Shown piece after piece: positions 4,999 through 58,909 of a DNA stretch of 64,000 nt (its first letter is position 1; every line of letters begins with the position of its first letter). Origin of the DNA: a virus; the IMG/VR virus record IMGVR_UViG_3300037333_000013, positions 100,668 to 164,667 of that record; one strand, written 5' to 3'. The notes beneath the pieces were generated by a model. The model saw nothing but the letters and a program-made list of their open reading frames with translations, was not told the DNA's origin and made no database searches. A program made the position numbers and the translations under genes.

Positions 4999-5030
4999 AA
5001 TAGTCTGTGTGCATATGCACACAGACTATT
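4999..5030 (-). terminator. Hairpin terminator after the 5.0-6.8 kb unit
   Basis: Perfect palindrome with 16-base arms (AATAGTCTGTGTGCAT and its complement), overlapping the stop codon of the gene at 5029 and followed on the minus strand by GTTTCTTTTT. Confidence 0.8.
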
Positions 5031-6895: not shown

Positions 6896-7900
6896 TTATA
6901 GTACGAACTCTTCGTCAGTGACCTCCATATCATCATCTTCGAATGTATATTGTTGTGCGTCTTTAATCTGCTTCAAGTTTGTCATGATTGTACCCATTAG
7001 ACCAATGCGTGAGTGCATAGTAAGTGGTAAGCTACCTTTGTCTCCAAGGTTATCTAAGACAGACTTATCTAAAATGACACCTTGTCTATTTGACATAGAT
7101 GGTACATCAATGGTTGTGTTGTTATTGTCCGTCAATACTCTCGTTACGACGTATTGGTCATCTCCAAAGTTATCCCCACTTGTTACGTCTACGATAGAGA
7201 TTCCACTAGGTACATTGAACTTCTTAGCGAGCATATGTGGTTTGAAGAATACTGCCATGTCAGCAGGGTCTAACTGTTCATTCTCGCCACTCACAAAGAT
7301 TGACGTAGCAACAACAAATGATACTACATCTAAGTTTACAGATGTGAGTGTATCGGACATCGCATTGTCCCTGAACATCATACTGATATTTTTTCTGTTC
7401 TTTTTTGCCAAGTTGTGGAATGTCTGGAGCGTGTCAACGGTATTAGATGTGACATGCAATGTACTACTATCACCTATTGTAATCGTTCCAAAGTTCACAT
7501 CTCTCTCTAGGAATTCTTTCACAATGATTGGTGCCGCAACAGAACCAGTTGCACCACTAGCACTATGTACAAGTAGTGCAAAGTTTGTTTCGTTCTCTTC
7601 AAAGATTCCAGTATTATTCAAGAACTTCACAACCCCATTCTTAATCACATCTAAGTTCTCCCCACGAATTGTCCCACTACCAACAACACCTTTACTTCCA
7701 ATTCTGGTGTCGTCAATCTTGAAGAACTCGGCATCAATAGCAGTTGCTTTATGTTTGTTTGCCTCACTTGTGTCTAGCACTAAGTACTCAATATCAGCAA
7801 TCCCATTTCCAGTAATATCTAATGCGTCGAAGTAATCTTTGATTTCGTATGCAATATTTGCACCTGTCCCACCTAATGCGATGATTCTTAATTTTACCAT
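6896..7900 (-). CDS. phuZ: PhuZ-like phage tubulin/FtsZ homologue
   Basis: A 334-aa protein with the tubulin/FtsZ nucleotide-binding layout. The N-terminal strand and loop MVKLRIIALGGTGANIAYEI (residues 1-20) is followed by the phosphate-binding signature SASGATGS at 113-120 (GGGTGSG in FtsZ). The C-terminus is strongly acidic (FEDDDMEVTDEEF), as in PhuZ, where the acidic tail makes polymer contacts. Known PhuZ proteins are about 315-325 aa. In phiKZ-like phages PhuZ forms dynamic filaments that centre the phage nucleus and carry capsids to it. It has its own promoter-like element (7950-7960) and terminator, so it is a single-gene transcription unit with a strong ribosome-binding site (AAAGGAGA). 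The replacement of the usual Gly-rich loop by S-A-S-G-A-T-G-S is divergent but recognisable. Confidence 0.88.
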   Translation of the reverse strand: MVKLRIIALGGTGANIAYEIKDYFDALDITGNGIADIEYLVLDTSEANKHKATAIDAEFFKIDDTRIGSKGVVGSGTIRGENLDVIKNGVVKFLNNTGIFEENETNFALLVHSASGATGSVAAPIIVKEFLERDVNFGTITIGDSSTLHVTSNTVDTLQTFHNLAKKNRKNISMMFRDNAMSDTLTSVNLDVVSFVVATSIFVSGENEQLDPADMAVFFKPHMLAKKFNVPSGISIVDVTSGDNFGDDQYVVTRVLTDNNNTTIDVPSMSNRQGVILDKSVLDNLGDKGSLPLTMHSRIGLMGTIMTNLKQIKDAQQYTFEDDDMEVTDEEFVL

Positions 7901-13014: not shown

Positions 13015-13036
13015 CCTAAGGATTTACATCCCTAGG
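13015..13036. terminator. Bidirectional terminator between methyltransferase and hairpin-tiled gene
   Basis: CCTAAGGAT TTAC ATCCCTAGG: nine-base arms with one mismatch, lying between convergent genes and containing the stop codon of the minus-strand gene. Confidence 0.6.
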
Positions 13037-14793
13037 TCTTTCTTCGTTCTTTGTAGTGCCTCCATCACTACCATCTTAAACCGTCCATCTTCATCCGTTA
13101 GATGGTCTATAATCTTCTCTAACCCTATAATTCCATCTGTCGGCAATCCTCGTAATCTTAACCACTCTAGTGTGCCTGGAAGGCAGTTACCAGCACTCTT
13201 GCTTGTTTCCATCGTTACCAATGGACATGCTAAGTCAGAGACTCTCTCGAACTCTCTTTTTAGCATTGATACAGGTTTAGTATCTAACCATTTCAGGTGA
13301 GCTTCATTAGCATCACTAATAGCATAGGCAATGCGGTTAGAAGTTGAGTGGTATGTGAAGCCGTCATCGAACTCGATGACGAATCCATCATATATGTACG
13401 GTGTATTAACCCACTGGGCTTTGTGTATTTTTAGACCACCACGTACAAATGTACGTAATATCGCCGTTTCAACACCGTCAACTATAGTCTTCTCAGACTT
13501 TAACCATCCCAGTATTAATGAAGTTTCCTCAAAAATCCCTCTCTTTGATGGGTGCCTCCAGTCAGAGTCCTCTCTTAACCACCCTGGAACAAGGCATTTG
13601 TCATCATGTCTCATTCTTCTAGTCCAATAGACAGCATCATTGTAGTTACCACAAAAGTCTACAACTTTACCTTTACTGGCTTTTTGGATTGCCAGCTTAT
13701 CTATTGACGCTTTGTGGTGGTCAAAGGTTCCACGCCAATATCCCTCGCACCAAGATTGGCGATTGAGCAGGTCACCAAGCTTTAGGTTAAGCTCTTTAAG
13801 CTTAGGCATAAACTCTACCAGAGCTTGTCTTGCTCTTTGGTAGCTTGATGTCACTACGCCAGCTCTGTTAGCTAGCATAATGATTACAGCCTTTCTAGGG
13901 ACTAGACTGTAGCCCATAGCATCAAGAGCAAGCTCATATGACACATTACGCCCTGTGATGCGTTTGAATGCATCAACCACTTTCCAGAGCATATTGTCTA
14001 TCGCTTGTGGTGAAGCGAAGAACCCACGCTCCTTGAATAGAGTGTATTCAAAGAGAGGCTTTCCAGTATGTGGGCTGTTAGCACCACACCCTGAGTATGC
14101 CCTTCTCTGGATTTCAAACAGGGGGCTATACCCATCAGCCATTGAAATGGCTTTGTGGAACCCAACAAACTCTCTGAGCTTTATGACTTTCATCCCTCGT
14201 TCAGAGTGTCTGCATTCAGTTCCATACTCGAACCCAACACTACGGACGAACTCCGTTACCGTGTTGTGTTCGAAGTATGGGTATATATTCCCAATATCAC
14301 CACCAGCTATTGACCAGAGCTTTCTTAACCCATAGCTGGTATCACACTTGACAAGGTTGTCAAGTGTGATAGTTGGACGTTCGTCCAATGGGGATACCCA
14401 TACGTCTCCCCACACTGGAGCTGGGTCGCTCCAGTTTTTTACTTCTTCCGAGTGCCTGCTCGGAAGAAATTCAGCTACGAATGCTCTCGCGTTCGTAGCT
14501 GAGGCAGTCTTAACTGCTTTTCTCTTTGCGTCATAAGACGCAAAGAGAGTCTTGTTCTTTTTGGCACGTTTCCGTGCCAAATTGGCACGTCTTCGCAGAC
14601 GTGCCTCCTTTAGTGCTGACTTAAAGTCAGCACTAATTACCTCCTCTACTAGAGGAGCAGAAGCTCCTCTAGTAGAAAGTTTAGGAGAGCCTGTAGACTC
14701 TCCTAGGAATGTAGAATAAATATCTTTATTTGTAACTTGTCTCATCCGAGACCTTTCACTATTTGACCTATACGAATACCGTGTAGCTTTCAC
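13024..14793 (-). CDS. Unrecognised 589-aa protein encoded by a hairpin-tiled gene
   Basis: No family recognised. The longest frame starts at GTG 14793 (MKATRYSYRSNSERSR) without a clear ribosome-binding site. An ATG at 14745 (MRQVTNKDIYSTF, 573 aa) has GAAAGGT upstream and sits in the loop edge of a small hairpin, and is at least as likely. About 100 N-terminal residues are basic and low-complexity (ARLRRRANLARKRAKKNK) and are encoded by back-to-back inverted repeats. The rest looks globular, with many Trp, Cys and His residues, CRHSERG in the first half, and SAGNCLPGTLEWLRLRGL near residues 533-550. Base composition is visibly richer in G+C, and codon use is unlike the AT-rich neighbours, which suggests transfer. 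It could be a mobile-element or nucleic-acid-binding protein; the RNA structure may be as important as the protein. It has its own promoter-like element and a roughly 290-base leader. Confidence 0.8.
   Translation of the reverse strand: MKATRYSYRSNSERSRMRQVTNKDIYSTFLGESTGSPKLSTRGASAPLVEEVISADFKSALKEARLRRRANLARKRAKKNKTLFASYDAKRKAVKTASATNARAFVAEFLPSRHSEEVKNWSDPAPVWGDVWVSPLDERPTITLDNLVKCDTSYGLRKLWSIAGGDIGNIYPYFEHNTVTEFVRSVGFEYGTECRHSERGMKVIKLREFVGFHKAISMADGYSPLFEIQRRAYSGCGANSPHTGKPLFEYTLFKERGFFASPQAIDNMLWKVVDAFKRITGRNVSYELALDAMGYSLVPRKAVIIMLANRAGVVTSSYQRARQALVEFMPKLKELNLKLGDLLNRQSWCEGYWRGTFDHHKASIDKLAIQKASKGKVVDFCGNYNDAVYWTRRMRHDDKCLVPGWLREDSDWRHPSKRGIFEETSLILGWLKSEKTIVDGVETAILRTFVRGGLKIHKAQWVNTPYIYDGFVIEFDDGFTYHSTSNRIAYAISDANEAHLKWLDTKPVSMLKREFERVSDLACPLVTMETSKSAGNCLPGTLEWLRLRGLPTDGIIGLEKIIDHLTDEDGRFKMVVMEALQRTKKDLGM
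13173..14152. repeat. Further inverted repeats through the rest of the hairpin-tiled gene
   Basis: Perfect short hairpins continue at lower density to the 3' end: 13173-13185 (TGCCT), 13208-13225 (TCCAT), 13268-13284 (GATAC), 13306-13320 (ATTAG), 13362-13381 (CGTCATCG, loop AACT), 13441-13456 (ACGTAC), 13486-13499 (AGTCT), 13640-13664 (TTGTAG), 13676-13695 (CTGGC), 13734-13760 (GCCAAT), 13788-13804 (TAAGCT), 13956-13975 (TGATGC), 14001-14018 (TCGCTT), 14137-14152 (AGCCAT). Short 5-bp cases could arise by chance singly; the number and regular spacing could not easily. Confidence 0.75.
14222..14752. repeat. Dense array of about 17 distinct perfect inverted repeats inside the 5' half of the gene
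   Basis: Back-to-back hairpins, each with its own sequence. Arms (left/right) include: 14302-14310/14332-14340; 14340-14352/14359-14371 (13 bp); 14373-14379/14382-14388; 14389-14394/14407-14412; 14414-14421/14428-14435; 14443-14452/14459-14468 (10 bp); 14471-14481/14492-14502 (11 bp); 14504-14508/14513-14517; 14521-14532/14537-14548 (12 bp); 14560-14568/14573-14581; 14584-14592/14597-14605; 14610-14621/14625-14636 (12 bp); 14645-14658/14663-14676 (14 bp, competing with 14641-14648/14650-14657); 14682-14689/14698-14705; 14715-14720/14725-14730; 14739-14743/14748-14752. Loops are mostly 2-10 bases. All arms listed match perfectly, and the reading frame stays open throughout. A nested multi-helix element occupies 14222-14280. 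Confidence 0.9.
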
Positions 14794-15092
14794 ATCACGT
14801 ATCTATTAATCCATCAGTGCTTTGTATAGTGTTCTCTGTAACTCCTGCCAATGGCTCGGTAGTTACTTTCTACATCGATAGATGCTTACTAACTATAACA
14901 AAGTTTACTAATAGTAGACTTCGGTCTGGCGTTACCCTGTTTACGTGTTCATAAACGTTCATCTTCAATCACCATAGAGCAGGTGTGCCTTGGGTCATCA
15001 TATCCTGAGTTATGGGATACTCTCCAGAGAAGATATAGAGTTTATACAATAGCAGTCGCTATCCATCACACTCTTGCATTAATAATATATAA
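14794..15092 (-). ncRNA. Structured leader of the hairpin-tiled gene
   Basis: About 290 bases between the promoter-like element and the GTG start, with no gene on either strand that I can support. Hairpins include 15049-15053/15058-15062 (ATAGC), a GTTTA/TAAAC pair, AGAC-CGAA-GTCT, CATC-TATC-GATG, and 14838-14843/14861-14866 (GTAACT) enclosing an inner CC..GCC-ATT-GGC.GG helix. The hairpin style of the coding region therefore begins at the transcript start. No known riboswitch or intron core was recognised. Confidence 0.55.
15079..15091 (-). promoter_or_regulatory. TATATATTATTAA early-promoter-like element of the hairpin-tiled gene
   Basis: Minus strand TATATATTATTAA right after the U-rich tail of the helicase terminator. 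The same core heads the other minus-strand units, so this gene is tied into the phage's own early transcription. Confidence 0.6.
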
Positions 15093-15106
15093 AAAAAAAT
15101 AATCGT

Positions 15107-15135
15107 ATACACAACCCAACGAGTGGGCTATGTAT
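15107..15135 (-). terminator. Terminator after the SF2 helicase gene
   Basis: Minus-strand stem ACATAGCCCA with TGGGTTGTGT (G-U pairs allowed), loop CTCGT, then a T-rich tail ending in nine T residues. Overlaps the helicase stop codon. Confidence 0.75.
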
Positions 15136-16337
15136 TAACGGTTGAAGAACGAGACAAATGGATTTTCGATTCCTACCTTTTCAGATAGTTTCTTGTTTCT
15201 CTCCTTTCTCTTTCTTTCTTTATCATTTATATTTCGTTCTTTCTTAATAAGATACCGGAGTTTCTTCTCCTCGTCATGTATCATTTTTAGAGCTTCCCTT
15301 TCCTCCCTATTCGCATAACCAACGCCATCAAGCCACGTAAGTAATTTCTTACTGTACTTGTACCCACTGTATGATGTTAAGTCATACGGGATTTCGAAGT
15401 CTTGTAACTTCAAGTCCGATATATTAATTCCTCTATATCTTTCGATTATAAACTCATCCATCTCTACTGTGAAGTGCTTTTTCTCTTTTCTACCTCTTTC
15501 GTGTAGGAAGTACCACCCCTTATCAGAGTATTGTGGTCTACCACATCTTCCAATTTTTTGTTCAATTATCTCCCACTCATCCCATTCGTTGTATTCAATA
15601 AGAACAACTTCGGCAGGAAAGTTTACCCCTTGGGCTAACACATTTGTCGAAATCATTATTTTGATTTCACCTCTTTTGAAAGCTAACTGTAACTCTAACC
15701 TTTCAGACGTTGGTGTGTCTGCCGATATAGTTGCGATATCTTCGAAGTCAATGCCTAGTAGGTTTGCATAGTACCGTCTGTGACCATCATCTGGTACATA
15801 TTTACTAAATATTAGAGTTGATTTCGTCTTAGCCAACTCTTTAATCTCCTCTAAGTTTTCAAGCTGAATCTTTTTAACCTCTTTGAAAGGTTTTAATTCA
15901 ATAACCTCTATATTCAGTAACTCTTTCAGCTCATCACTTAGTGAATCTGTCGCTGTGAGCAACACAACCTCAACTCCTAAGTTCTTTGCTTTTATGATGT
16001 TATTGAGTAACATCAAACCTCTATCTTCATCATTGATGAAGTGGCATTCATCAATGATTACTGTTTCGTATGTGTCTATTGCGTTTGGGATACTCTCATA
16101 GACACATACTTGAGAGCCTCCTTTCCCATCTTTTGAGAGGTTTATATTCACCTCTCCGGTATTGCATATGGTGAATTTATTGTAATCCACCATTATCTCG
16201 TACGCTAGCTGTCTGGTTGGGACTGCTATTAAGGTCTTTCCTTTACTCTCTTTAATAGCGGTATATGTCTTACCGCTACCTGTCCCCCCTACAAGCATTT
16301 TTGTTTTGCTATTATTCGTTAATTTATTTAATTTCAT
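15135..16337 (-). CDS. SF2 DEAD/DEAH-type helicase
   Basis: 400 aa. Walker A GGTGSGKT at residues 17-24, motif Ia region VPTRQLAYE, DECH box at 96-99 in VIIDECHF, motif III LLTAT, and motif VI QKIGRCGRPQ. The second RecA-like domain carries ISTNVLAQGVNFPAEVV. The C-terminus is a basic coiled tail (KKERNINDKERKRKERNKKL). It uses ATP to unwind or remodel nucleic acid, and the DECH/QxxGRxGR set resembles Ski2/RecQ-like helicases more than replicative ones. The start has AAAGGATAACAA upstream and lies behind an early-promoter-like element with a hairpin-containing leader. Probable role in phage RNA or DNA metabolism; substrate not readable. Confidence 0.88.
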   Translation of the reverse strand: MKLNKLTNNSKTKMLVGGTGSGKTYTAIKESKGKTLIAVPTRQLAYEIMVDYNKFTICNTGEVNINLSKDGKGGSQVCVYESIPNAIDTYETVIIDECHFINDEDRGLMLLNNIIKAKNLGVEVVLLTATDSLSDELKELLNIEVIELKPFKEVKKIQLENLEEIKELAKTKSTLIFSKYVPDDGHRRYYANLLGIDFEDIATISADTPTSERLELQLAFKRGEIKIMISTNVLAQGVNFPAEVVLIEYNEWDEWEIIEQKIGRCGRPQYSDKGWYFLHERGRKEKKHFTVEMDEFIIERYRGINISDLKLQDFEIPYDLTSYSGYKYSKKLLTWLDGVGYANREEREALKMIHDEEKKLRYLIKKERNINDKERKRKERNKKLSEKVGIENPFVSFFNR

Positions 16338-16476
16338 TTGTTATCCTTTTAGGTTTACTTTATATTCTGCATTACCAGATACACGACTATGACTCTTTTA
16401 ACTTAACACCGCGTGACAAAGTGTTAACAGTAATTCAATTACACCATAATAATATATAGGTAAAAAAAAAGGTATG
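16338..16476 (-). other. Leader of the helicase gene with two small hairpins
   Basis: The minus-strand leader from the promoter-like element to the helicase start holds GTAAT-TGA-ATTAC and TTAACAC-N11-GTGTTAA hairpins and no gene. Possible translational control or mere spacer. Confidence 0.4.
16447..16458 (-). promoter_or_regulatory. TATATATTATTA early-promoter-like element before the helicase
   Basis: Minus strand TATATATTATTA directly downstream of a terminator with a nine-T tail; same core as the other unit heads. Confidence 0.6.
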
Positions 16477-20414: not shown

Positions 20415-20446
20415 AGTATGTATGTGGGATATCCCACATACATACT
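20415..20446 (-). terminator. Terminator between two leftward units
   Basis: A perfect 32-base palindrome with 16-base arms (AGTATGTATGTGGGAT), followed on the minus strand by CTCTTTTTCTTTCTTT. Confidence 0.8.
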
Positions 20447-39531: not shown

Positions 39532-42500
39532 TTAAATTTTGTCTAGCTCAAGAATCTTCTCTGTTGCCACCATCAGTACTGTTGTTGTAGATGCGATGTC
39601 ATAGGGGGAGTTTACAATCCTCGCACCAATACTCCTATCACTGGTAGTATAATCTACTCTTCTTCCATCAGCTGTTTCAATTCTATCTGCCACTTCACCA
39701 ATCGTCATCTTTAGTTGGTTCATCGCAATAGCTTTGTCACCGACATTCATGCCATTCTTCTTCTCTAAGAAGAACTTTATCTCTACTTGGTCTTCATCAA
39801 GTGGTCTGGCTTTAATAGAGTATGTATGGTCTACCTTTCCAGTAAACCCTTTCTCCTCTATCATCATTTTATCTATCTCTTCGATAAACTTTCTGATACT
39901 AGGACTCATCTCTTTTTGTTCGGCTCTGTAATAGACTTCAATATTTATCACAACCCCCTTTGCTTCAGAACGTAATGCATTGTTATCTAAAGAAGCAATA
40001 AACTCTTTACCATCTTTAGAGTTTAGTGTACCGTCATCAAATCCATTGTTGTTTACAAAGTCAATGAGTGTATCTCCAAACGATATCTTATCACCGACAG
40101 AGGACACAAACTTCAATTTGCAGTCAATTGGTATAGTATATGAGAAAACCGATGTTAAGTTTGTCACAAACTTCTTAGCATACTCTCTATCAATCGTGGC
40201 AGAATCTTCGTATGTCTCTTGGTTCTCATTGAGTGCTACTAAGCAGGTATCTCCACCCTTATAGACTACCGTTTTGTCGTCAAAGATATCAACACCAAAG
40301 AATGCGGTATCATAGTAGATAAAATCGTACAGTTTGAGTTTATCTCCTTTCTTTAATGGTGTTACCAATGTATGTTTATACGATAATCCACCTATCTCTT
40401 TCGTATTCCATGTGGCTAGTTTGTACCTCTTCTTCTTTCCACTTTTATACTTTACAGAGACATACTTATTAGAAACAGCTTCAACCACACCCTCTTCTGT
40501 CGCATAAGCTACGAACTTTTTACCCATCCTATACGGTATAAGCAATTCATAACCAGTCCCAACTGGCCATACACGTTGTGTCTCCGTTGGAACGACAGAA
40601 CTGTTTTGTACAGAGATGTATAATTGCCTTTTGTTGTCATCTTTATCTGCATATGGGAATGCTAACATACTACTACTCACGATGTTTGAGATAGAGAGTT
40701 CATTGTGTTCTTTCATTACACCAAACATATTATCCATCTTAGAACTACCTGGTAGATATGTTGTGACACCTACTTGACCACTATCCTTTGTTGCCTCGCT
40801 GACATACCCCATACTACTCTTATCGAATACTCTGTCTCTTGATGCGATACTAGCTTTGTCTCTACCAAATTTACCTATTAATGTAATCTCTTCTTCTTGT
40901 TTTAACTTTGTGAATGGGTTTAAGTCATCTACTAAGGTAAATGTTCCATCTTCTGCGAGCATAGCTTTGAGTTCATATGGGTTAACAGTGAGCTTTGTCT
41001 TCACCATACCTGTTTTATGTTCGTTGTCTCGTACAGCTTTAGCCATAATGTGGTAGAGCATACCATTGAGTCTCTCGTGTCTACGCATCACTAACCCAGA
41101 AACATCATTCTGTTTCTTATGGAAGTCATCCTTTAACATATCGATACTTCGATAGAGTAATCCGACAAATGTTGTGGGTTCTTTCATTCTCTTTAGTAAG
41201 TCATATGTCATAGGGTCTACCCATAAACGTTTCATCAGGGACAACTCTGTGAAGAGTCTTCTACTATTGATATTCATATTGTTCACAACATCAATCATAC
41301 CACTCTCACTATTCATAGCATCAAAAGTGTAGTACTTTAGGTCATTCATAGAGAGTAATCCACCAATGACAATATCATACCAATCACTTTCGATAATGAG
41401 TTTCCTATCTTTAAAACGTAAGACGTATTCCTTCTCTGTTGGTGTGTATCGTTCTCTTTCACCAATGGATTTATAACGTACTTTCAGAGTTTTCATCAGT
41501 GACGTTATACCATCATAGTATGATAAGATGATAGCCATTGGAATCGTCGTTCCCATAATCTTCATACTAGCATACTCTTTTGGTAAGTCTGCATAACGTA
41601 ACCCTATGAACGTAATGATATCGCCTAAATCTTCAGGTTTCTTATTTGTCACCTTAATGAGATGATTTGACATATTGATATAGTATGTACTCTTCCCATG
41701 TTGTGCTACGACGACACCGAACTTCTCATCAACATCTTTAAACTTATTCAGTCTCGTTTTGTAGTCAAATGATAATCCTATTCCTTTATACTTTAAGAGT
41801 TTTATCTTCCGACCTATGACTTGATACATATGAGGGAGTTTGACAGCCGCCACAGTACAAGTACCAACAATCATCAGACCAATGTTCTTGTCGCCATTAT
41901 CAACAGCTTTCTTCAACTGTTTATGTATGGCGATAGAGATATCCTCTCTTGATGAGATAACTTTAGAAATGAACGATTTGCTATAATAACTGTTTAATGC
42001 AACAGTGCTATATGAAATCTTCTTAATAGGGACATCTGCTTTCTGTCCAACCATAATCATCTCGTTACTATTTAACTTAAAAACTCCACCTTCGTCCATT
42101 GCAGGTACAATAATAGGTATCTTTATCTCTCTCCCTTTATTGTTAATGTAAGAGATGATATGGGTATCTTCAGCATATGCCACATCTCGCTTTTCTACTA
42201 CTTCGTGATTTGTCATCACCATACCAATACGAGCAAACTGATTAAAGACACGTTTCTGATGCTTCTTATACCCTTTCTCTAGGTACTGTTTAGCAAAGGC
42301 AGTATTTGTGTTTTTGAGCATCTCTTTATCCTTAATGATGATGGAGTCCGGATACTCTTCAATCATCAGATTTGCGTCTTCATCTGTGATAATATTTTCT
42401 TCTTCAATACGTTTACTCTCTTTGATAGACTCCATGACTTTATCAAAGTGTTTCTTTGTGATGATTCCCTTCTCTAGTTTCTCTTCTAAGAACTCTCTGG

Positions 42501-43545
42501 CATCTGCATCTATTCCTTTCTCTTCAGTTAGTATCTCTTCTAAGCTTTTCTCTTTCTCTGTAACGACACTCTCTTCAATAGTCACCTCTTTCTGTCTTTC
42601 ATTGTGGTCTTCAATCATTGTGTCAATATCGTCATTTACAGTACCACCAACACCTACATCGGTTGATGTATCTTTATCCAGCTCTTTCAATGTCTTTGTA
42701 GACCTTGTGGTAATTGTTAAAAGATAGTATAAGAATAACTTTATTGCTTGGTTCTCATCCACGCCCTTTACTTTGGATATAATATCATTCTCTTTATAAA
42801 GTGCGAAGAGATTTTGGATAGAACATACTGTGATAGAACCATTTAATCCAAAGATAAACTTTAAGTCAGACTCTTGGATATTGGTGATTCTATTAAAGAT
42901 AGATGTGTTATTATACTTAGAAGTGAGTTTCTTTATCATCTCTAGGATAAGTAGCATATCCTTGTCTTTTACGAGTTGTAGTGTCTTATAATTACTATAC
43001 TTGAGTGCTTCCTTAATAATAGCTAGTTTAGGGATGTACTTTGGTATTGGTACCGGAATATAGATAGTCCTGCTAGTAGCTCTATCTGGTTCAATTGACG
43101 CAGATAGGATAGTATTCAACAGGTTCATCTGTTTATCATACTCTTCACCACGATACTTTTGATACTTATATAAGTACTCCAATCGATAGAAGTCGAAGAC
43201 GATAGGAACACGTCTATCCACTAAGAACAACTTTCCTTTAGAAGAGACAAAATCAAATTGCTTCTCGGTATCCATCTTCTTTAATTTCTGTATCATTGCT
43301 GGTAACTCTAGTGAGAGACGTCTAAACTTTCCTGGCTTCTCTTTAAAGTACTTCATAATAGGAAGCACCTTTGGTTTATTCTTTACCTTTAAGAATAGAT
43401 TATTTCCAATATACTCTTTGTGATACCATAATACTGCACTGTTTATAGGCATCTCTAACTCTAAACTCTTTGTAACTCTAGGGTTTGTAAAGTCAGATAC
43501 TTTTCTCACACCAATGAGTCTCTCTAATTGTTCATATGTAAACAC
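39532..43545 (-). CDS. Virion RNA polymerase beta-like subunit (single-chain)
   Basis: 1337 aa with the landmarks of bacterial beta in order. These are an N-terminal lobe; a segment SMLAFPYADKDDNKRQLYIS, matching the DDANRALMGSNMQ region; NQETYEDSATI, matching the GYNxEDA/S region; and near the C-terminus KKNGMNVGDKAIAMNQLKM, matching the VGDKxxGRHGNKG region. The catalytic magnesium loop would be on the beta-prime chain. phiKZ-like phages package a multi-chain RNAP that transcribes early genes; this gene sits next to the giant hydrolase gene as phiKZ 178 does beside 180/181, so I assign it to the virion enzyme. A strongly charged acidic helix-rich insertion lies around residues 290-400. Overlaps its neighbour by one base. 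Confidence 0.85.
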   Translation of the reverse strand: MFTYEQLERLIGVRKVSDFTNPRVTKSLELEMPINSAVLWYHKEYIGNNLFLKVKNKPKVLPIMKYFKEKPGKFRRLSLELPAMIQKLKKMDTEKQFDFVSSKGKLFLVDRRVPIVFDFYRLEYLYKYQKYRGEEYDKQMNLLNTILSASIEPDRATSRTIYIPVPIPKYIPKLAIIKEALKYSNYKTLQLVKDKDMLLILEMIKKLTSKYNNTSIFNRITNIQESDLKFIFGLNGSITVCSIQNLFALYKENDIISKVKGVDENQAIKLFLYYLLTITTRSTKTLKELDKDTSTDVGVGGTVNDDIDTMIEDHNERQKEVTIEESVVTEKEKSLEEILTEEKGIDADAREFLEEKLEKGIITKKHFDKVMESIKESKRIEEENIITDEDANLMIEEYPDSIIIKDKEMLKNTNTAFAKQYLEKGYKKHQKRVFNQFARIGMVMTNHEVVEKRDVAYAEDTHIISYINNKGREIKIPIIVPAMDEGGVFKLNSNEMIMVGQKADVPIKKISYSTVALNSYYSKSFISKVISSREDISIAIHKQLKKAVDNGDKNIGLMIVGTCTVAAVKLPHMYQVIGRKIKLLKYKGIGLSFDYKTRLNKFKDVDEKFGVVVAQHGKSTYYINMSNHLIKVTNKKPEDLGDIITFIGLRYADLPKEYASMKIMGTTIPMAIILSYYDGITSLMKTLKVRYKSIGERERYTPTEKEYVLRFKDRKLIIESDWYDIVIGGLLSMNDLKYYTFDAMNSESGMIDVVNNMNINSRRLFTELSLMKRLWVDPMTYDLLKRMKEPTTFVGLLYRSIDMLKDDFHKKQNDVSGLVMRRHERLNGMLYHIMAKAVRDNEHKTGMVKTKLTVNPYELKAMLAEDGTFTLVDDLNPFTKLKQEEEITLIGKFGRDKASIASRDRVFDKSSMGYVSEATKDSGQVGVTTYLPGSSKMDNMFGVMKEHNELSISNIVSSSMLAFPYADKDDNKRQLYISVQNSSVVPTETQRVWPVGTGYELLIPYRMGKKFVAYATEEGVVEAVSNKYVSVKYKSGKKKRYKLATWNTKEIGGLSYKHTLVTPLKKGDKLKLYDFIYYDTAFFGVDIFDDKTVVYKGGDTCLVALNENQETYEDSATIDREYAKKFVTNLTSVFSYTIPIDCKLKFVSSVGDKISFGDTLIDFVNNNGFDDGTLNSKDGKEFIASLDNNALRSEAKGVVINIEVYYRAEQKEMSPSIRKFIEEIDKMMIEEKGFTGKVDHTYSIKARPLDEDQVEIKFFLEKKNGMNVGDKAIAMNQLKMTIGEVADRIETADGRRVDYTTSDRSIGARIVNSPYDIASTTTVLMVATEKILELDKI

Positions 43546-57693: not shown

Positions 57694-58500
57694 ATGCGTG
57701 GATATAAACTATACGGATATGGTGTTGTAACAAAAGACATCGAGGTCAATGATAAGTACGCAACTATTGCTATCTATGAAGCAGTAAGTGGAAATGAAAC
57801 ATTTGATAACAGTGATACCACAATCGATGAGAAATCAGGTGTAGTCTCTGACGCTACCGGATTTAAAACAACAAAACACGTCAAAAGAGAGATGACAGTA
57901 GAAGCACTCTGGCTCAATGAGGGGAGTACACGTATCAATATACCCATGATGAGTATGGGTGAGCTAGTAAAAGTCTATAACTATGATGGTACAGATAGGT
58001 TCTACTTTAAACCACATCATCTAGAGAAAGACCTAAGACGTAAAGAAGTCGTCATACATGCATTCAGTAACTTAGACAAAGAGAAAAACTTTGGACAGTC
58101 GTTTGATGAATCCACGAGTTACCACTTTATGGTAGATACCGTGAATAAACTGAGCCGTTTCAAGACTGCTACAAATGATGGTGAGCCAGTGCTATGGGAG
58201 ATACTGTTAGATAGTGGTAAAGGGAAGCTCTCTATCTTAGTAAACGGAAAAGAGAAGATAGTGTTAGATGGTGTATCTGATAAGCTAACAATTAATGTCA
58301 AAGATACGATATTAAATGGTAGTACCTTATTAGCCAACTTATCAAATACTTTCACACTCGTTGCTAGTAAGTTCTTGAATAAATCAAGGTCAATGATAGT
58401 CTACGCCACAACGACAGTCAAGAAGAGTGTTGACTTTAAAAGTAAGTGTAAATTTAATATGTTGAGTAAAACAGGGGTAAAAAAAGAACCATTAGAGTAG
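57694..58500 (+). CDS. Unrecognised beta-rich protein (268 aa)
   Basis: Start placed at ATG 57694 (MRGYKLYGYGVVTKDIEV), just after the RuvC stop with GGACTAG upstream. Predominantly beta, with an internal KHVKREMTVEALWLNEG and a repetitive strand region near the C-terminus (KLTINVKDTILNGSTLLANL). The composition resembles spike/baseplate beta-helix tips such as gp5/VgrG C-termini, but this is only a resemblance. Last gene before a shared terminator. Confidence 0.72.
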   Translation: MRGYKLYGYGVVTKDIEVNDKYATIAIYEAVSGNETFDNSDTTIDEKSGVVSDATGFKTTKHVKREMTVEALWLNEGSTRINIPMMSMGELVKVYNYDGTDRFYFKPHHLEKDLRRKEVVIHAFSNLDKEKNFGQSFDESTSYHFMVDTVNKLSRFKTATNDGEPVLWEILLDSGKGKLSILVNGKEKIVLDGVSDKLTINVKDTILNGSTLLANLSNTFTLVASKFLNKSRSMIVYATTTVKKSVDFKSKCKFNMLSKTGVKKEPLE

Positions 58501-58523
58501 TGTGGCAAGTGCCACACTACTCT
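58494..58523. terminator. Bidirectional terminator between spike-like and zinc-ribbon genes
   Basis: 14-base perfect arms (AGAGTAGTGTGGCA / TGCCACACTACTCT) with a two-base loop between convergent genes; contains stop codons. Confidence 0.8.
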
Positions 58524-58909
58524 ACCTTTCTATAAATATCTTTGTTTAGCCTATCTATATGTGTACAGATAGGACACACTTCTTTACGAAGTGTTTGGTA
58601 ATTCAGTACCATTGTGTTCTCACACTTTGTACACAGCACTTTCGCAAACCAGTGATAACTGTACGACTCTTTGTCGAATCGTTTTAAATTGTTCTCTAAC
58701 ACGTTTAGTGTAGAGAACTTTGCACCTACTACCACGGATTTTGCACCACGACATCTCGCACATGGTTGTGCAAATGCCTTGTCTGAGTACACTTTATTTT
58801 TCTTCTGTCCACATACTGGACAGCTTGCGATACAACGTTTCACAGTTGTAAGTTTACCCTTCGGTGACACGTTCGTGAACATCACGAATACCCATCCATT
58901 AAATTTCAT
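58517..58909 (-). CDS. Zinc-ribbon protein with four CxxC-type clusters
   Basis: 130 aa with cysteine pairs at C30-x2-C33, C50-x2-C53, C93-x2-C96 and C112-x2-C115, enough for two zinc sites. The linker contains an aromatic-rich segment (ESYSYHWFAKVLCTKC). Proteins of this kind bind nucleic acid or act as transcription factors; in this phage it may be an accessory factor for one of its polymerases. It is a single gene behind a variant promoter-like element. Family not named. Confidence 0.8.
   Translation of the reverse strand: MKFNGWVFVMFTNVSPKGKLTTVKRCIASCPVCGQKKNKVYSDKAFAQPCARCRGAKSVVVGAKFSTLNVLENNLKRFDKESYSYHWFAKVLCTKCENTMVLNYQTLRKEVCPICTHIDRLNKDIYRKVE

Follow-up and report, generated by a model that had tools for sequence, protein, structure and literature searches.

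We identified, in the genome of a giant phage, a gene of unassigned function (X) whose coding sequence carries a dense series of short hairpins that differ from each other in sequence, and found the same kind of structure in several unrelated genes of this genome and of related contigs. The excess of structure is linked to one class of promoter, is biased towards the mRNA strand and fades from 5' to 3'. The stretch of DNA analyzed, referred to as the window, is the 64,000-nucleotide end of a 164.7-kb virus record (contig G000) and encodes PhuZ tubulin, ribonucleotide reductase and a phiKZ-type RNA polymerase subunit. Judged by gene content, with both PhuZ and a phiKZ-type RNA polymerase beta subunit in the window (6896-7900 and 39532-43545) and PhuZ also in contig G004, the source and the related contigs are an uncultivated group of phiKZ-like giant phages. 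From this kinship, the group may form a nucleus, as in the Chimalliviridae, for which the chimallin (ChmA) shell protein is a marker. The reading that we prefer, at a probability of roughly 45%, is that transcripts from a poly-T/TATATTA promoter class (probably early transcripts) are under selection for dense local mRNA structure, mostly in the 5' part of the coding sequence, and that the hairpins act as armour. The features discussed are listed in Table 1.

Table 1. Location of gene X, other tiled genes, promoters and leaders. Coordinates are those of the window, or of the locus where one is named.
Feature	Location	Strand	Remarks
Gene X	13024..14745	minus	573 aa from ATG 14745; 589 aa from GTG 14793
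Weaker, imperfect local hairpins in X	13744..14301	minus	windows mostly z -3 to -4
X leader, not significantly structured	14746..15082	minus	z -1.0 vs dinucleotide shuffles
X promoter, poly-T run + TATATATTATTA	15080..15099	minus	motif scan, sequence; probably early, class by resemblance
Suv3-like DExH helicase gene	15135..16337	minus	Pfam; codon-permutation z ~-6; hairpins mainly 15995-16278
Pseudoknot-like element + GUAAUG hairpin, helicase leader	16366..16427	minus	arms checked
Helicase promoter, poly-T/TATATATTATT	16450..16475	minus	
130-aa gene, hairpin-enriched, after poly-T/GTATATTATT promoter	58517..58909	minus	z -6.4
Pseudoknot-like leaders	window 16366-16427 (minus), L016:6658, L016:5349, L018:4131, L019:361, L056:3433		
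G004 leader RNA copies	L038:1-117, L038:3116-3230, L041:2623-2740, L044:4328-4444, L045:2672-2787		

The 589-codon frame described in the initial annotation is indeed open (13024-14793); the downstream ATG is the likely start, as it is preceded by an AAAGG Shine-Dalgarno-like sequence and the AUG lies inside the first small hairpin. On the minus strand between 14302 and 14752, within the coding sequence, the dense series of sequence-distinct perfect hairpins was recovered as first described, with arms of at most 15 bp (e.g. 15 bp at 14340-14371, 14 bp at 14645-14676) and loops of 2-21 nt. The deviating base composition was also found, the G+C content of the X region being 0.47 compared to ~0.35 nearby. 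Only short two-copy direct repeats are present in the region, in line with the earlier view that the array is no CRISPR or other repeat family, and a search of the window and of loci L038 and L045 against Rfam 15 gave no match above gathering score to a known structured RNA family.

Folding was compared with shuffled controls, as had been proposed. Permutation of synonymous codons within the gene, which leaves the protein and the codon usage unchanged, served as null model for X. The mean folding energy per 150-nt window is -49.7 kcal/mol, compared to -35.2 ± 0.9 kcal/mol in the codon permutations, corresponding to z -16.4 for the transcript strand; for the antisense strand, z was -14.5. Against dinucleotide shuffles, the region 14180-14760 reached z -22 and none of 100 shuffles folded equally well. 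The array is real and chance is excluded. The claim that the whole transcript is tiled was wrong, because folding of the leader (15092-14740, ~340 nt) does not differ significantly from that of shuffled sequence and the signal disappears below ~13743, where 150-nt windows mostly range from z +1.5 to -2.2 and the final ~700 nt are near background. Hairpin coverage per fifth of the coding sequence, from 5' to 3', is 0.68, 0.09, 0.14, 0.04, and 0.02.

Homologues of X were found neither in Pfam, PHROGs, NCBIfam, PADLOC, PDB sequences, INPHARED phages and the related records searched, nor among IMG/VR or GTDB contigs, which were scanned by exact short peptides so that distant relatives could be missed. 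Matches to Salmonella phages (E 5-9) were regarded as noise, the AlphaFold model made without an alignment was unusable (pLDDT 39), and direct comparison with a 728-aa protein of contig G004 was not significant. As X has no detectable relative, it is approachable only via other genes that share the tiling property.

Such genes are present in the window itself, so that the statement that nothing else in the 64 kb resembles X was too strong: the helicase gene, which adjoins X on the upstream side, and the 130-aa gene are milder cases. Strong tiling occurs elsewhere in G000 and in the related contigs. The nearest helicase relative found in IMG/VR (contig G001, L006:9980-11092), whose protein is 50% identical to that of G000, is tiled along most of its length. 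A gene for a MYG1-family exonuclease in G000 (L016:5425-6525) is also tiled; its assignment to MYG1/UPF0160 is based on Pfam PF03690 (66.4 bits, cut-off 22.1) and on the DHH motif FDHHQF in the translation. Contig G002, which is near-identical to G000 where compared, carries the same MYG1 gene as well as a 180-aa gene with 41% hairpin coverage (coverage z 7.3), and G004 carries the tiled 728-aa gene and a structured MYG1 gene (z -7.4). A PcfJ-like identity considered for the 728-aa protein was dropped, as there is no such Pfam match. Folding z values are -24 for the 728-aa gene, -21 for the G001 helicase, -16 for X and -10 for MYG1, and coverage z values are 6.2 for X and 6.4 for the G001 helicase. 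Tiling is limited to some genes, and background genes lean only slightly negative (mean folding z -1.8). In contig G006, three adjoining genes at L048:7143-9363, one of them MYG1-like, are hairpin-enriched.

Tiled genes lie preferentially after poly-T/TATATTA promoters. X, the helicase, MYG1 and others are located after a poly-T run and TATATATTATT, and these promoters are probably of the early, virion-polymerase type, given their resemblance to phiKZ-type promoters. Hairpin coverage was higher in genes of this class than in the remaining genes in G000 (p 5e-4) and G001 (p 9e-6), where the p-values are partly circular because the motif was chosen after it had been noticed at the first tiled genes there, in G002 (p 0.04, with genes that overlap those of G000) and in G005 (p 7e-4, with only two genes in the class); for G004, also with only two genes in the class, p was 0.08. 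The folding z of 19 poly-T/TATATTA genes differed from that of 110 others (p 5e-6), and all of the five most structured gene starts among 159 in G000 belong to the class. Several genes located after this promoter show hardly any structure (z -0.3 to -2.6), and the tiled genes of G006 have no obvious poly-T/TATATTA promoter directly upstream. The TATATTA-like promoters, together with PhuZ and the phiKZ-type RNA polymerase subunit of the source genome, resemble phiKZ-type early transcription units. However, not one of the 1,171 ORFs of the cultured phages phiKZ, Goslar, PCH45, pVa-21 and JM-2012 exceeded a coverage z of 4 and no gene attains the tiling level of the group, and in phiKZ the promoter class was not linked to hairpin coverage.

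Some tiled genes are headed by structured leaders. In G004, a strongly covarying leader RNA of ~117 nt precedes five tiled genes, which rank 1, 2, 5, 8, and 13 of 161 genes for tiling. Compensatory double changes were found in 15 of its 37 pairs, among only four distinct sequences; it has no Rfam match (L038, L045) and was not found in the other contigs searched. Six leaders of the poly-T/TATATTA class in G000/G002 have in common a possible H-type pseudoknot arrangement and a hairpin with a GUAAUG loop, with arms (picked by eye) that differ in sequence yet pair, only partly as written in one leader (141aa).

By inspection, the hairpin positions of homologous genes generally do not coincide. 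Tiling is kept while individual hairpins change, both in the helicase (G000/G001) and in MYG1 (G000/G004/G006), and what the homologues retain is dense short structure, located mostly in the 5'-proximal three fifths of the coding sequence. This speaks for a property of the message in bulk and against a defined RNA domain or a scaffold, the latter being one of the roles initially suggested. Homologues with a conserved protein and neither hairpins nor covariation, which the initial annotation had named as counterevidence, were encountered only outside the group, where the distantly related helicase genes of other viruses (L028-L036) gave z ~0; inside the group homologues are tiled, at different positions. 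The MYG1 genes of the two near-identical strains G000 and G002 (L016:5425-6525 and L021:3001-4101) are identical except for one block of ~85 nt, which contains a different hairpin in each version and gives the impression of an exchange with a diverged homologue; their comparison is therefore uninformative on covariation.

Among the roles proposed earlier, an RNA shield fits best. A mobile element moving through single-stranded DNA or RNA found no support, as no family, transposase-like or other, was matched by X and one promoter class is common to several tiled genes that are unrelated to each other. In early messages, short hairpins with arms of no more than 16 bp would offer few targets to ribonucleases that are specific for single strands and would probably be short enough to escape efficient cleavage by RNase III. 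The threat may come from host RNase E-type decay, from RNA-targeting defences or from the RNA decay enzymes of the phage itself, in which case phage messages would be self-protected during the clearance of host mRNA. Such self-protection is a plausible reason, given that the products of two recurrent tiled genes, the Suv3-like DExH helicase and the MYG1/DHH-family exonuclease, are predicted RNA-decay proteins. MYG1 has been described as an exonuclease that acts on RNA in the 3'-5' direction and contains a DHH motif (PMC11167044). The link to RNA decay rests on two families, because the function of X and of most tiled genes is unassigned. RNA-targeting systems reportedly stay effective against jumbo phages with shielded DNA (PMC13282480), which suggests a possible purpose for armour. 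A bolder version, which we consider doubtful, is that gene-length RNA armour evolved in this DNA phage lineage, with early mRNAs recoded into chains of short hairpins, in some genomes headed by dedicated structured leaders, and thereby spared when unstructured RNA is removed, be it by the RNA helicase and exonuclease of the phage or by RNA-targeting defences of the host.

Among the rivals to the armour reading are a role in translation and a role in transcription. With regard to translation, the hairpins may slow or gate ribosomes or prevent long-range pairing of the ribosome binding site and thereby tune early protein output, and the phage RNA helicase could sense its own structured mRNA as feedback. 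The tiling begins at the coding sequence and not in the X leader, the X start codon lies within a hairpin and the helicase gene itself is tiled, all in agreement with such control; the structure, however, spans hundreds of codons, far beyond the needs of initiation control, and genes unrelated to helicases are tiled as well, and we regard this explanation as unlikely.

Whether selection acts on RNA bears on the remaining explanations. Hairpins selected or made at the DNA level are expected to show G-U and A-C mismatches equally often in the mRNA. In relaxed stems of 12 tiled genes, the internal mismatches on the sense strand comprised 42 G-U and 16 A-C, compared to 10.3 and 12.1 in codon-permuted versions (p 6e-5), and the direction was the same at two other stem thresholds (p 8e-5 and 4e-4). 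The excess of G-U over A-C indicates that selection acts on the mRNA strand. Wobble pairs were more depleted in antisense than in sense folds, and protein identity within hairpin arms was not consistently lower than outside. Together these results favour mRNA selection over template switching or a function in DNA and, with the codon-permutation z, support the initial proposal that RNA structure is selected in addition to the protein.

A mutational origin, in which template switching during replication between near-inverted repeats perfects hairpins that are tolerated and not selected, would account for stems that are mostly perfect Watson-Crick and for arms that differ everywhere. The mechanism has been discussed for the coding palindromes of nematomorph mitochondria (PMC6649704), and has been shown to change proteins in yeast (PMC8604942). 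Against this stand the restriction of tiling to one promoter class, the mRNA-strand bias and the protein identity in the arms, which make such an origin quite improbable. Slightly less credible still is a role in transcription, in which hairpins in nascent, ribosome-free RNA prevent R-loops or polymerase backtracking, transcription being separated from translation in the phage. The tiling does peak near the promoter and fade downstream, but a role of this kind should cover all genes transcribed without ribosomes, whereas most genes are untiled and the X leader, nearest to the promoter, is unstructured. Extrusion of the hairpins from single-stranded DNA for replication, recombination or packaging is very improbable: the antisense strand folds nearly as well, but the G-U over A-C asymmetry, the occurrence at several separate loci after one promoter class and the confinement of the hairpins of tiled genes to coding sequences are at odds with it.

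Phage genomes are usually read as proteins and short regulatory signals. Here, whole coding segments bear a second, mRNA-level design that is common to unrelated genes of one promoter class. If the hairpins are armour, they would offer a direct test of how DNA-shielded phages keep their exposed messages safe from decay and from defences that target RNA, and would illustrate how codons can be chosen in nature for the durability of an mRNA. No description of hairpin-tiled phage genes and no matching system was found in the open-licence literature. RNA structure that overlies coding sequence and restricts sequence space is mentioned in PMC6563262; structure overlies coding sequence here too, but, unlike the case there, in a double-stranded DNA phage and as short near-perfect hairpins, which are restricted to a subset of the genes of one promoter class and there mostly to the 5' part. 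The coding palindromes of nematomorph mitochondria, which are up to 284 bp long and may be a burden and not a function (PMC6649704), are likewise perfect inverted repeats inside functional coding sequences, whereas the structures described here are promoter-linked and show an mRNA-strand bias, and their arms of no more than 16 bp set them apart from long palindromes of that type. Single long perfect palindromes are present in the window at or near gene ends (4999-5030, 20415-20446, 58493-58524 and similar) and are possibly terminators.
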